Assembly (NCBI RefSeq): GCF_900142775.1
Contig: NZ_FRCC01000001.1
Location: forward strand, 1-64,000
Direction of reading: 5' to 3'
Length of the DNA: 64,000 bases
Source of the DNA: Flavobacterium flevense
GTDB taxonomy: Bacteria; Bacteroidota; Bacteroidia; Flavobacteriales; Flavobacteriaceae
Shown here: piece by piece, positions 13,387 through 18,012 of the stretch
Numbering within the stretch: the first letter of the stretch is position 1
Layout: each line of letters opens with the position of its first letter
Notes under the pieces: generated by a model
Told to the model about the DNA's origin: nothing
Seen by the model: the letters and a program-made list of their open reading frames with translations, nothing else
Databases searched by the model: none
Made by a program: the position numbers and the translations under genes

Positions 13387-14433
13387 CTACTCCAGCGAAA
13401 GCTTTGCCATTATCGGGAAATGGTCTGAATTATCAAATTCAGGAAAGGTTTCAAATTTTTTAACCTCCATTTGTTTATCGGCAAAAATATAATCAATTCG
13501 GGCAGGATAATATTTAAAACGATAGGTTTGTCCAAAGCCCACACCGGCTTCTTCAAAAGCATCTTTTGAATCCCCTTTTATAATGCGATACACGTATGAA
13601 AACGCACTGTTATTCATGTCTCCGCAAATGATTACAGGATAAGGACACTCTTTTAAGCTCTCTTTTAAAATCTCCGCTTGTTCTTGTTGTTGCTTAAAAG
13701 CTTTACTGATTCTAAAAAATATCATCTGCGATTTCTCTTTATTCATCACATCAATATTTTCTGAAATCTCATTGACATCCGGCGAAATTTTAATGGATTG
13801 TAAGTGCATATTATACACCCGGATAATGTCTTTCCCCTTCTTAACATCAGCATAAACAACACTATTATTAGAATTAGGAAACAGAATCTTTCCTTGCTCA
13901 ATAATAGGAAATTTAGAGAAAATAGCTTGCGCGGTTTTAATTTGGTCTCCCTCCATAAAAATAGTCCGGTGCGGATATACCTTTAAATCAATATGTGCCG
14001 AATTAGAATATTCCTGGATACATAAAATATCAGGATTTTTATCGTTTACAAATGCTAAAATAGTTTCCGGAATATCTGCTTTATCATCCCATTTAAACAA
14101 ATTAAACAAACGGACATTATAGCTCATCACCACAAAATCCTTATCGCTCTCCGGATATTTTTTAGCCGAAAATTTATAAAACTTATTAATAAAAGTAATA
14201 CCTATTAAAAGAACCAACCCTGAAACAATCATCCTTTTTTTGAACTGAATGGCCCAATACAAAAAGAAAAGGCTGTTTAAAATAAAAAACAAAGGCATGA
14301 AAAGTGTCAAAACGGATAACCATGGAAAAATTTTAGGTGCCAAAAATGGAAGCACATAAGCTATAAAAGTGACGATAATAAGCGTAATGTTCAAATAAAA
14401 CATTCCTGTATTGAACCATGAAAGTTTTTTCAT
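13387..14433 (-). CDS. Membrane-anchored endonuclease/exonuclease/phosphatase family protein
   Basis: 348 aa. Three N-terminal membrane segments (about residues 8-30, 37-60 and 67-85) are followed by an EEP fold: VMSYNVRLFN (about 103-112), the metal-binding Glu in DILCIQEYSN, ICGDMNNSAFS (about 271-281) and the terminal SDHFPIMAKL. The family includes DNase I-like nucleases and phosphodiesterases acting on nucleic acids or lipids. The active site faces the side opposite the loops and cannot be placed with certainty. First gene past the convergent junction; it follows the two rhomboid genes in the same direction. Confidence 0.88.
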   Translation of the reverse strand: MKKLSWFNTGMFYLNITLIIVTFIAYVLPFLAPKIFPWLSVLTLFMPLFFILNSLFFLYWAIQFKKRMIVSGLVLLIGITFINKFYKFSAKKYPESDKDFVVMSYNVRLFNLFKWDDKADIPETILAFVNDKNPDILCIQEYSNSAHIDLKVYPHRTIFMEGDQIKTAQAIFSKFPIIEQGKILFPNSNNSVVYADVKKGKDIIRVYNMHLQSIKISPDVNEISENIDVMNKEKSQMIFFRISKAFKQQQEQAEILKESLKECPYPVIICGDMNNSAFSYVYRIIKGDSKDAFEEAGVGFGQTYRFKYYPARIDYIFADKQMEVKKFETFPEFDNSDHFPIMAKLSLE

Positions 14434-14485
14434 TTTATTTTATTTAATGTCTAAAACCCCTTTTACAACAAAGCATTTTAAACAA

Positions 14486-15361
14486 TTACTTCCCTGACTT
14501 GAATAAAAAATCTTTCTCTTCTTTAGTTAAACTATCGTAACCTGACTGGCTGATTTTATCTAAAATCTCATCAATTTGTTGTTGCGCTTTATCTTTTGTG
14601 ACAATTCTGGAAGCAGTTCTTTTTTCTGCTGGCTTCACATTATAATTTCTATGTACTTTTTTAAAAGGCGTTGATGGAGACATTCTGAAACCATTAGCAA
14701 AAAAATCAATAATACGAGTAACAATCAGACTCATATCAGTACCATTTTGCAATGCTTTTATGTACATAAAACCGAAAAAAGCACCTGCTAAATGCGAAAT
14801 ATGTCCGCCCATATTATCTAAACGGATTTGCATTAAATCTAGTATGAGCAACACCGCTGTTAGATGCCATAATTTGACGTTTCCTATTAACAACAAACGC
14901 ACTTGCATTAAAGGCTGATAAGCCGTAACGGCCACTAATATTGCCATTATTGCTGCCGAAGCTCCCACAATGGCTCCGCTAATATTCATGATATAATAAC
15001 TGGCTGCAAAAACTACTCCTGCAAAAACAGCACTCAAAAGATAGAGTCCTAAAAATTGCTTTTGGGTAAAAAAGGTTAAAAACAACTGACTGGCAAAATT
15101 AAGGACCAATAAATTGAATAAAATATGGAAAAAATCAAAATGAAAAAAAGAATAACTCAGCAGCGACCAAGGTTTCCATAATAAATCTGCCGGATTAGAG
15201 GACAAACTTACATATTGAAGAAAATCGGCTTCAACATTCCCCAGTAGTAATAATCGGGGCAACACATACGAAATTAAGAAACAAGCTATGTTCCAATAAA
15301 TTAATTTATTAGCTACTCCTCCCAGTTTATATTGTAATTTTAAATCGTCTAAAATATTCAT
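14486..15361 (-). CDS. Rhomboid family intramembrane serine protease
   Basis: 291 aa. About six membrane segments lie between residues 20 and 205. The catalytic Ser is S135 in GASAAIMA (the usual GASGA reads GASAA) and the catalytic His is H190 in GGHISHLAGAFFG. A charged cytoplasmic tail (205-291) follows. Rhomboids cleave membrane proteins within or near the bilayer. It lies downstream of a second rhomboid gene and mutL in one minus-strand run; 33 bases separate the two rhomboid genes. Confidence 0.92.
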   Translation of the reverse strand: MNILDDLKLQYKLGGVANKLIYWNIACFLISYVLPRLLLLGNVEADFLQYVSLSSNPADLLWKPWSLLSYSFFHFDFFHILFNLLVLNFASQLFLTFFTQKQFLGLYLLSAVFAGVVFAASYYIMNISGAIVGASAAIMAILVAVTAYQPLMQVRLLLIGNVKLWHLTAVLLILDLMQIRLDNMGGHISHLAGAFFGFMYIKALQNGTDMSLIVTRIIDFFANGFRMSPSTPFKKVHRNYNVKPAEKRTASRIVTKDKAQQQIDEILDKISQSGYDSLTKEEKDFLFKSGK

Positions 15362-15394
15362 TTTTCAATTCTTTTTTCAGGTTGAATAGCCATC

Positions 15395-16147
15395 TTAATT
15401 CCAACGGCGGTCATTAAACTGGTTTTTCTTCCAATACCACATAATCAGAAAACCAGTTATTGCTCCGCCAATGTGTGCAAAATGAGCAATCCCCGAGTCT
15501 ATTCCCATTAAGGAATTCCCAAAGATACCGAAGAAACCATCAAACAAAAGCATATAAACAGGAACAAAGTATTTAGCTTTTACAGGCACAGGAATAAACA
15601 TAATTCCCAGCTCAGCATTAGGAAACATAAAAGCAAAGGCAATTAATAATCCATAAACAGCCCCCGATGCTCCTACCATAGTCGTTGCAAAAGAACTAAT
15701 AAAATTTTGATATTCAGTCGCTGTCAAAAGAGACTGCCATTGCGTATTAATTTTTCCCTGATTCAGTAACTGCAAAATTTCCGTTCTTTGAAAACCATTC
15801 GATTCTAATATACTAACGGCATCATTAAAGTAATAATAACTCACTCCGGTTTGTACCAGAACAGCTCCTAATCCGCAGGAAATATAAAAAAACAAGAATT
15901 TCTTTTCGCCCCAAAAATGTTCCAACGTTGAACCAAAAGAATACAAAGCAAACATATTAAAGAAAATGTGCATAAAATTACCATGCATGAACATGTGGCT
16001 TAATGGCTGCCAAAAATGAAAACCTTGATTTTCAGGAAAAAACATCGCTAAAATTTGATATGCCGGTTCACCTACGACAAGTGTTCCCACAAAAAACAAA
16101 ATATTAATGATTAATAATTGTTTTACTATTGGTGTTATATTCATCAT
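15395..16147 (-). CDS. Rhomboid family intramembrane serine protease
   Basis: 250 aa with six membrane segments. It has the oxyanion-loop region HMFMHGNFMHIFFNM (51-65), the catalytic Ser S161 in VGASGAVYG and the catalytic His H225 in AHFAHIGGAITG. The loop between 100 and 155 is longer than in GlpG. The start overlaps the end of mutL by four bases, so it is translationally coupled to mutL. It is only distantly similar to the neighbouring rhomboid, so the pair is not a recent duplication. Confidence 0.93.
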   Translation of the reverse strand: MMNITPIVKQLLIINILFFVGTLVVGEPAYQILAMFFPENQGFHFWQPLSHMFMHGNFMHIFFNMFALYSFGSTLEHFWGEKKFLFFYISCGLGAVLVQTGVSYYYFNDAVSILESNGFQRTEILQLLNQGKINTQWQSLLTATEYQNFISSFATTMVGASGAVYGLLIAFAFMFPNAELGIMFIPVPVKAKYFVPVYMLLFDGFFGIFGNSLMGIDSGIAHFAHIGGAITGFLIMWYWKKNQFNDRRWN

Positions 16148-18012
16148 ACTGCAAATTTTTTATCTAAGTCTTCCACACGCATCGTGATGAAAGTGGGTTT
16201 TTGAAAAGGCGATACATTAGGGTCTTTACAGGCAAAAAGACCATTTACTAGATTTTCCTGCTCTTTTACCGTTAAACTGATTCCTGTTTTAACAGCCAGA
16301 CTTCTCGCCATCGATTTGGCAATACTGTCATTCTGACTAAAACTATTCTCTGGGATTCCGTCTTGTAAATCGCTTAATAATTGTTCTAACAGGATGGAAA
16401 CTTCACTTTCGGTCACATTTACCGGAATTCCGGAAATCACCACATGATCGTCATTCGTTTCTTCAAAAACAAATCCTGTATTGACCAATGAAAGCTTTAA
16501 TTCGCTGATTAATTCCATTTCGCCTGACGAAAAATACAAATTCAACGGAAACAGTAATTGCTGACTCGATGCCTGATGTACCGTCATATTAGTCAAAAAT
16601 TGCTCATATAAAACCCGCTGATGTGCACGCTGCTGATCCACAATAACCATTCCTGATTTGATAGGCGAAACAATATATTTTTTATGAATCTGATAGACAT
16701 TCTGAACCGCATGTTCTACTTCTTCATCATTAAATAACGAAGCGGTAACTTCTTCACTTTCAAAAGAAATTTCGGCGCTTGCCGGAAACTCAGGTTCTTG
16801 TTCTAAACCTACATACAAGCTTTCCCAACTGGCCGTTGCGGCTGGTTTTTTATACAATGATCCAGATGATCCCGAACCAGCATAATGTTTATTGACTTTA
16901 TCATCCGAAAATGGATTGAAAGTACTATCGACCTGAATGGTGGGCACTGCTCCCGCCAAATCTTTGTAATGATAAGGGGTATCCAAATTAGAATCTCTGT
17001 CGAAATCTAAAACCGGAGCCACGTTAAACTGCCCCAGACTGTGCTTGATAGAAGCTCTTAAAATAGCATACAAAGCGCTTTCATCATCAAACTTGATTTC
17101 AGTCTTTGTAGGATGTATATTGATATCGATAGAATTAGGCGGAACTGTTAAATACAAGAAATAACTGGGCTGTGCTCCGTCTTTTAAAATACCGTCATAA
17201 GCCGCCATTACTGCGTGATGCAAATAGCCGCTTTTTATAAATCGGTCATTGACAAAGAAAAACTGTTCCCCTCTGTTTTTTTTAGCAAATTCAGGCTTGC
17301 TGACAAATCCTTCAATAGTTACAATTTCGGTTTCTTCATGAACGGGAACTAATTTCTCATTGGTTTTACCTGAAAAAACATTCACCACACGCTGTCTCAA
17401 TGTTGAAACAGGCAAGTTGAACATTTCACTACCATTATGGTAAAATGTAAAATGTATGTTCGAATGTGCCAAAGCTACTCGCTGAAATTCATCAATAATA
17501 TGGCGGTATTCCACCGTATCCGATTTTAAGAAATTGCGTCGGGCGGGAATATTAAAAAACAAGTTTTTAACAGCAAAAGAAGTCCCCTGAGGCAAAACCG
17601 CTGTTTCCTGCGATACAAATTTGCTTCCTTCAATAACTATTTGTGTTCCTAACTCTTCCTGTGGCTGCCTGGTTTTCATTTCCACATGAGCAATCGCTGC
17701 AATAGAAGCCAATGCTTCTCCACGAAAGCCCTTAGTATGTAAGGTGAATAAATCTTCGGCATGACGAATTTTAGAAGTTGCGTGACGCTCAAAGCACAAT
17801 CGCGCATCGGTTACGTTCATTCCTTTTCCATTGTCAATCACCTGAACTAATGATTTTCCGGCATCTTTTATAATCAACTTGATATCAGTTGCATTTGCAT
17901 CTACTGCATTTTCAAGTAATTCTTTCACTACCGAGGCAGGTCTTTGAACGACTTCTCCAGCGGCAATCTGGTTCGCAACATGATCAGGAAGTAATTGGAT
18001 GATACTCGACAT
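16144..18012 (-). CDS. mutL: DNA mismatch repair protein MutL
   Basis: 622 aa. The N-terminal GHKL ATPase is intact: ELLENAVDAN (31-40), IDNGKGM (59-65), HATSKI (77-82) and GFRGEALASI (95-104). A variable linker (335-435) and a C-terminal dimerisation domain follow. The place of the MutL endonuclease motif DQHA(x)2E(x)4E reads DQQRAHQRVLYE (459-470), and the CPHGRP box near the C-terminus reads SPFQKP (601-606). Nicking activity is therefore doubtful, even though this phylum is not known for MutH. It links MutS mismatch recognition to downstream repair. Confidence 0.96.
   Translation of the reverse strand: MSSIIQLLPDHVANQIAAGEVVQRPASVVKELLENAVDANATDIKLIIKDAGKSLVQVIDNGKGMNVTDARLCFERHATSKIRHAEDLFTLHTKGFRGEALASIAAIAHVEMKTRQPQEELGTQIVIEGSKFVSQETAVLPQGTSFAVKNLFFNIPARRNFLKSDTVEYRHIIDEFQRVALAHSNIHFTFYHNGSEMFNLPVSTLRQRVVNVFSGKTNEKLVPVHEETEIVTIEGFVSKPEFAKKNRGEQFFFVNDRFIKSGYLHHAVMAAYDGILKDGAQPSYFLYLTVPPNSIDINIHPTKTEIKFDDESALYAILRASIKHSLGQFNVAPVLDFDRDSNLDTPYHYKDLAGAVPTIQVDSTFNPFSDDKVNKHYAGSGSSGSLYKKPAATASWESLYVGLEQEPEFPASAEISFESEEVTASLFNDEEVEHAVQNVYQIHKKYIVSPIKSGMVIVDQQRAHQRVLYEQFLTNMTVHQASSQQLLFPLNLYFSSGEMELISELKLSLVNTGFVFEETNDDHVVISGIPVNVTESEVSILLEQLLSDLQDGIPENSFSQNDSIAKSMARSLAVKTGISLTVKEQENLVNGLFACKDPNVSPFQKPTFITMRVEDLDKKFAV

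Follow-up and report, generated by a model that had tools for sequence, protein, structure and literature searches.

The window analysed here, a stretch of 64,000 nucleotides from Flavobacterium flevense, carries a mutL gene on the reverse strand (16144..18012) that encodes a protein of 622 aa. A GHKL ATPase, a DNA_mis_repair domain, and a MutL_C domain are all present (Pfam E values of 4.6e-10 for HATPase_c_3, 4e-35 for DNA_mis_repair, and 1.8e-26 for MutL_C), and the model TIGR00585 gives 491 bits; hence, the product is a member of the MutL family. Its N-terminal GHKL ATPase/transducer part (aa 1-330; 17023..18012, reverse strand) contains the motifs ELLENAVDA, DNGKGM, HATSKI, and TKGFRGEALASI, and the ATPase half, which an earlier note on this DNA described as intact, is so at the level of motifs. 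The MutL_C domain occupies aa 437-622 (16147..16704, reverse strand). The closest named relative, among the best 80 of 565 matches, is the Flavobacterium palustre MutL (93%). Only one copy of MutL was found in the 99.97% complete genome, with no second MutL. After mutL lie two rhomboid genes, one of them with a DUF6576 domain, and then an Exo_endo_phos gene (13387-16147 for all three).

In MutL endonucleases, the metal ligands sit in three boxes, and the arginine of CPHGRP is catalytic, according to the available part of PMC10366529; for B. subtilis MutL, the available part of PMC2965676 names the histidine and first glutamate of box 1 as metal ligands. The features that mark an endonuclease-type MutL (DQHAx2Ex4E, ACR, CPHGRP with its arginine, and a C-terminal FGR) are all four lacking from the window protein. 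On the reverse strand, box 1 reads DQQRAHQRVLYE in place of DQHAx2Ex4E (aa 459-470; 16603..16638), with the histidine and first glutamate replaced, box 2 reads ARS in place of ACR/ACK (aa 569-571; 16300..16308), with the cysteine replaced, and box 3 reads SPFQKP in place of CPHGRP (aa 601-606; 16195..16212), with the cysteine, histidine, and catalytic arginine replaced, the last by a lysine. The C-terminus reads FAV in place of FGR (16147..16155). Two residues of box 1, Asp459 and Glu470, are still present. We take the remaining ligands to be the cysteine of box 2 and the cysteine and histidine of box 3. The loss of the endonuclease motif that had been noted at 16195-16638 is thus confirmed, and the change reaches further than the boxes named at the time, to ARS and FAV.

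The rest of the domain is recognizable. It aligns over its full length with the C-terminal domains of B. subtilis (3gab; E = 4.5e-13) and Neisseria (3ncv) MutL, both of which have the metal ligands, the catalytic arginine, and FGR, whereas the window MutL has these replaced. One feature of the endonuclease type is retained, namely a putative clamp motif, QQLLFP (aa 484-489; 16546..16563, reverse strand), for which clamp binding is predicted from its alignment with QEMIVP of 3gab. We take QEMIVP to be the beta-clamp-binding motif of B. subtilis MutL. The match of the window domain to its E. coli counterpart is more distant (E = 0.0023).

We compared the window protein with close relatives in a set of 81 MutLs, made up of the window sequence and the best 80 of 565 matches. 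Box 1 is of the type DQ[QNHKS]RAH[QE]R[IV]LYE in 81 of 81, the box-1 histidine being kept in two and the first glutamate in one. Q.LLFP occurs in 80 of 81. Box 3 was captured by our search expression in 71 of the 81 proteins, none of which reads CPHGRP. The median pairwise dN/dS of the ATPase part is 0.025 (425 of 3240 pairs with a usable dS), that of the linker 0.123 (544 pairs), and that of the C-terminal domain 0.04 (598 pairs). Because the same type of box 1 recurs in all 81 proteins and the alignment with 3gab covers the whole domain, the altered boxes are neither a chance event nor a frameshift. The C-terminal domain is maintained under purifying selection without its nuclease and is not in decay.

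To place this loss, we surveyed the GTDB phylum and the class of the window organism, which we take to be Bacteroidia in GTDB. MutL_C was found in 392 of 395 sampled genomes of the phylum and in 80 of 80 genomes of a panel hand-picked for family coverage. From 121 loci, 114 MutLs could be read (L014, L018, L020, L027, L028, L120, and L121 gave no parsable ORF), with loci L001-L030 being the top scorers for the Pfam model, which may favour intact sites. All eight residues of the site (D, H, E, E, C, C, H, and R) are present in 35 of these 114 proteins and not in 78, and one is truncated. None of the 114 lacks exactly one of the eight; those nearest to intact have six (genomes G352 and G340, both outside the class). 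Aligned across many Bacteroidota, the boxes thus bear out the loss. It is not, as first proposed, a trait of this organism but the rule in our class sample, where the site is missing from 52 of 55 full-length MutLs, a set that includes 14 proteins chosen by a box-1 pattern match and so leans to the intact state. Among the 52 site-less proteins of the class, Q484 of the clamp-type motif is kept in 94% and F488 in 100%. Outside the class, intact and altered MutLs both occur within the same phylum.

The three intact proteins of the class all belong to one genus (g204) of family f89; these MutLs (L134, L135, and L136) are the only confirmed ones in the class with a complete site, reading DQHAAHERILYE, ACRAAIK, CPHGRP, and FGR. 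A DNA pattern for D.H.AHER[IV], which detected 35 of 35 intact MutLs and 5 of 79 others, was present in 25 of 395 class genomes, and a reversed control pattern in 2, although absence of the pattern alone is no proof of a site-less MutL in each genome. From the 25 positive genomes, 21 loci were retrieved, of which 18 had a MutL ORF and 3 were intact; left out of the retrieval were G497, G549, and G523, where the matched bases read DQHRAHERI, and G501. At the other extreme, the MutLs of the sister family f2 (L105, L106, L107, and L108) have a far more diverged C-terminal domain (e.g., DLGRMHRLVVSE), with MutL_C at just 33-40 bits and an eroded clamp motif.

Across the phylum, the site has switched state many times. 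A tree built from the ATPase half alone, to keep out the columns of the trait itself (110 rows), requires at least eight switches between intact and altered MutLs, five of which are forced by its best-supported, starred branches; the tree was built by a quick method with SH-aLRT support only, and its stars are weaker than those of a full search. A 79-row panel tree gives five changes of MutL state. Since the intact f89 proteins are nested inside the class branch, it is most natural to assume that the ancestor was intact and that the class lost the site, the tree alone being unable to tell gain from loss.

Could the altered protein still cut, by way of another metal site or a residual activity? 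Asp459 and Glu470 are kept, and the exchange of arginine for lysine is a mild one: Aquifex MutL with this exchange (R406K), its other boxes being intact, retained weak activity, as reported in the accessible text of PMC10366529. In addition, Cys595, six residues N-terminal of box 3, is enriched among site-less MutLs of the class (15 of 15 in the family, 81% in the class, and 37% of intact MutLs), and could in principle form a new metal site together with His464 and Glu470. The replacement of the box 1 histidine and glutamate, the box 2 cysteine, and the box 3 cysteine and histidine speaks against continued cutting. Moreover, among residues at least 85% identical in 15 family MutLs, no new D/E/H/C cluster near the old boxes was evident from sequence alone beyond Cys595 and those box-1 residues that are common to intact MutLs, and the alignment likewise offers no evident alternative metal site. 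An AlphaFold model of the C-terminal domain (pLDDT 45.2, pTM 0.36) is too poor to judge a metal site in space. We consider continued cutting by MutL highly improbable.

If MutL does not cut, a separate nickase might. MutH gave no match at E<=10 in the 99.97% complete genome of the window, with an E. coli control in the same run scoring over the cut-off. A MutH-family match over the cut-off was found in 1 of the 80 panel genomes (a 481-aa frame with two matches) and in 8 of 198 class genomes (frames of 453, 465, 468, 466, 486, 514, 352, and 213 aa). Six of these eight frames span 453-514 aa, and four of the six have a second match; their length and second match suggest that the long frames are presumably Sau3AI-type restriction enzymes. 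The MutH-family loci (L256-L263 and L143) are sporadic in the class, with those of G433 (352 aa) and G495 (213 aa) differing in length. Being absent from the own genome and rare in both panel and class, MutH was rejected as the replacement. NucS/EndoMS was rejected too: nothing in the own genome was over the cut-off, and the sole sub-threshold match is a YhcG PDDEXK protein. In the panel, the NucS model matched 14 of 80 genomes at E<=0.001, 10 of them over the cut-off, and the matches in frames of 120-138 aa look to us like YraN.

A third candidate was an Smr-bearing MutS2. No Smr domain was matched at E<=0.001 in the own genome, while 73 of 80 panel genomes were positive. The own MutS2 (721 aa; L253:490-2655, on contig C17 of G000) is encoded by a gene separate from mutL and, like the window MutL, is without its nuclease part: its match to the family model (790 positions) stops at position 690 (710 with the stop read through), short of the Smr nuclease domain. 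Hence, this substitute was rejected as well. With TIGR01069, the 80 panel genomes divide into 58 whose MutS2 runs to the Smr end (G428, counted here, reaches only model position 773), 16 that are Smr-less, and 6 with none over the cut-off. For the 42 genomes with an altered MutL, the corresponding numbers are 21, 16, and 5, and for the 38 with an intact MutL they are 37, 0, and 1; all 16 Smr-less genomes, the window's own included, thus have an altered MutL. An association between the two losses has no statistical support, with three to four changes of Smr state and a median p of 1 for independent pairs (79 of 80 rows; G485 has no row). Several genomes with an Smr-less MutS2 carry other, small Smr proteins. 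In the family of the window organism and in several of its sister families, MutS2 too is without its nuclease domain, which would leave them with no known cutting activity linked to MutS or MutL. The genome search that the earlier note proposed for MutH or other nicking partners therefore turned up no MutH at E<=10, no NucS over the cut-off, no Smr at E<=0.001, and no second MutL.

We also asked what lies beside mutL and mutS. Rhomboids and an EEP-family protein recur beside mutL in the 61 regions retrieved. In the window, the EEP-family gene is the third downstream of mutL (13387-14433), and its Exo_endo_phos domain raises the question of whether the product makes the nick, all the more so as the gene is found in 23 of the 61 regions, all 23 in the class. 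To judge from its N-terminal membrane segments and charge pattern, however, the catalytic domain appears to lie outside the cytoplasm. Nor did the gene turn up in the remaining 38 regions, each 4.6-9.5 kb long and some of them with an altered MutL from inside or outside the class, although it could sit elsewhere in those genomes. We therefore think it very unlikely that the EEP protein nicks for MutL. Around mutS, clustering of ORFs from 20 regions found no gene other than mutS common to more than 11; the widest cluster after mutS, with members in 11 regions, is by our reading of the sequence a SpoU-like methyltransferase, and no nuclease-like gene was seen among the mutS neighbours in the 14 widest clusters.

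MutS itself is nearly universal in the panel, with domain I found in 78 of 80 genomes; the two lacking a match come from f89, with assemblies of 340 and 400 contigs. This bears on the idea that MutL has left mismatch repair and serves only some other role, e.g., anti-recombination. A MutS with domain I accompanies the altered MutL in 42 of 42 panel genomes, and the ATPase and clamp-type motifs are retained under selection; both argue against such an exit, which we rate as highly improbable. The window genome (G000) also encodes two MutS-domain-V proteins without domain I, L254 and L255 (590 and 424 aa).

How does the window protein compare with known systems? E. coli MutL (1x9z) likewise keeps the ATPase and dimerisation domain without nuclease boxes, and works with MutH (PMC12733681, in the part available), whereas the window genome has no MutH match; of the two marks of the MutH-dependent type, a MutL without boxes is found here and MutH in the genome is not. 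MLH1 and human PMS1 are also MutL family proteins without the motif, according to the available text of PMC2965676. Unlike the window MutL, which is the sole MutL of its genome, they occur alongside PMS2, a paralogue that has the nuclease. The accessible part of PMC3848065 states that the motif is present in all MutL homologues except those of some gamma-proteobacteria that have MutH, and that of a 2025 review (PMC12733681) gives only MutH or MutL as the source of the nick. As far as the available passages go, reviews thus split bacteria into those that nick with MutH and those that nick with MutL, and nearly all members of the class studied here fit neither. Among the matches listed in a search of the open literature, judged by title and the opening of the abstract, we found no publication on a nuclease-less MutL of Bacteroidota. 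Banasik and Sachadyn reportedly surveyed about 200 MutL orthologues in 2014, and the pattern may already be recorded there.

The first proposal, by which another enzyme "must" make the nick, is plausible but not forced, since replication ends could serve and the replacements tested were not found. We suggest that the entry point for repair comes from elsewhere than MutL, most likely from replication-associated ends or nicks and otherwise from an undiscovered nickase. In the reading that we favour, at about even confidence, the altered MutL is a functional, nuclease-dead, clamp-tethered matchmaker, and discontinuities in the new strand provide the point of entry. MutS would load MutL as an ATP-driven clamp; MutL, held at the replicative beta clamp, would then do no more than bring in helicase and exonuclease as a matchmaker. 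Strands would be entered at Okazaki ends, at the leading 3' end, and at nicks at misincorporated ribonucleotides, without a cut by MutL. Replication breaks and nicks at misincorporated ribonucleotides have been discussed as possible strand signals in the available parts of PMC3848065 and PMC8744996, respectively. Because entry points of this kind would need no single partner, nuclease loss could recur in the phylum. A result from Thermus counts against the proposal: MutL there has the site, and R500T fails to complement a mutL deletion (PMC10366529, in the text available), so replication ends alone are insufficient in that organism.

A dedicated, as yet undiscovered endonuclease, recruited by MutL as MutH is in E. 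coli, fits the same data and is a possible, though more doubtful, source of the nick. E. coli MutL serves as the matchmaker for a separate nickase (PMC12733681) and does so without the boxes (PMC3848065 and PMC2965676, all in the parts available), and the C-terminal domain of the window MutL is conserved without its nuclease residues, as a docking surface would be. Set against this are the failure of the candidates tested (MutH, NucS, and Smr/MutS2), the lack of a nuclease-like common neighbour of mutS in the ORF clusters of 20 regions, and the repeated changes of MutL state, which demand that the partner be ancestral or have been gained repeatedly. Taking the two sources together, we think it probable that a very large bacterial class carries out MutS-MutL repair with neither a MutL endonuclease nor MutH, starting either from replication-born ends or from the cut of a nickase that the phylum inherited from its ancestor and that is yet to be discovered. 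How these bacteria start mismatch repair is a testable question, and Flavobacterium johnsoniae, in which neither of the known answers is expected to hold, allows a direct test of how the new strand is marked and opened.

Finally, a mutL 82-84% identical to that of the window is found in three metagenome bins that bear the names Klebsiella pneumoniae, Chitinophaga pinensis, and Lentimicrobium (L204, L230, and L214); their contigs are probably from Flavobacterium and were given a wrong name or put in a wrong bin.
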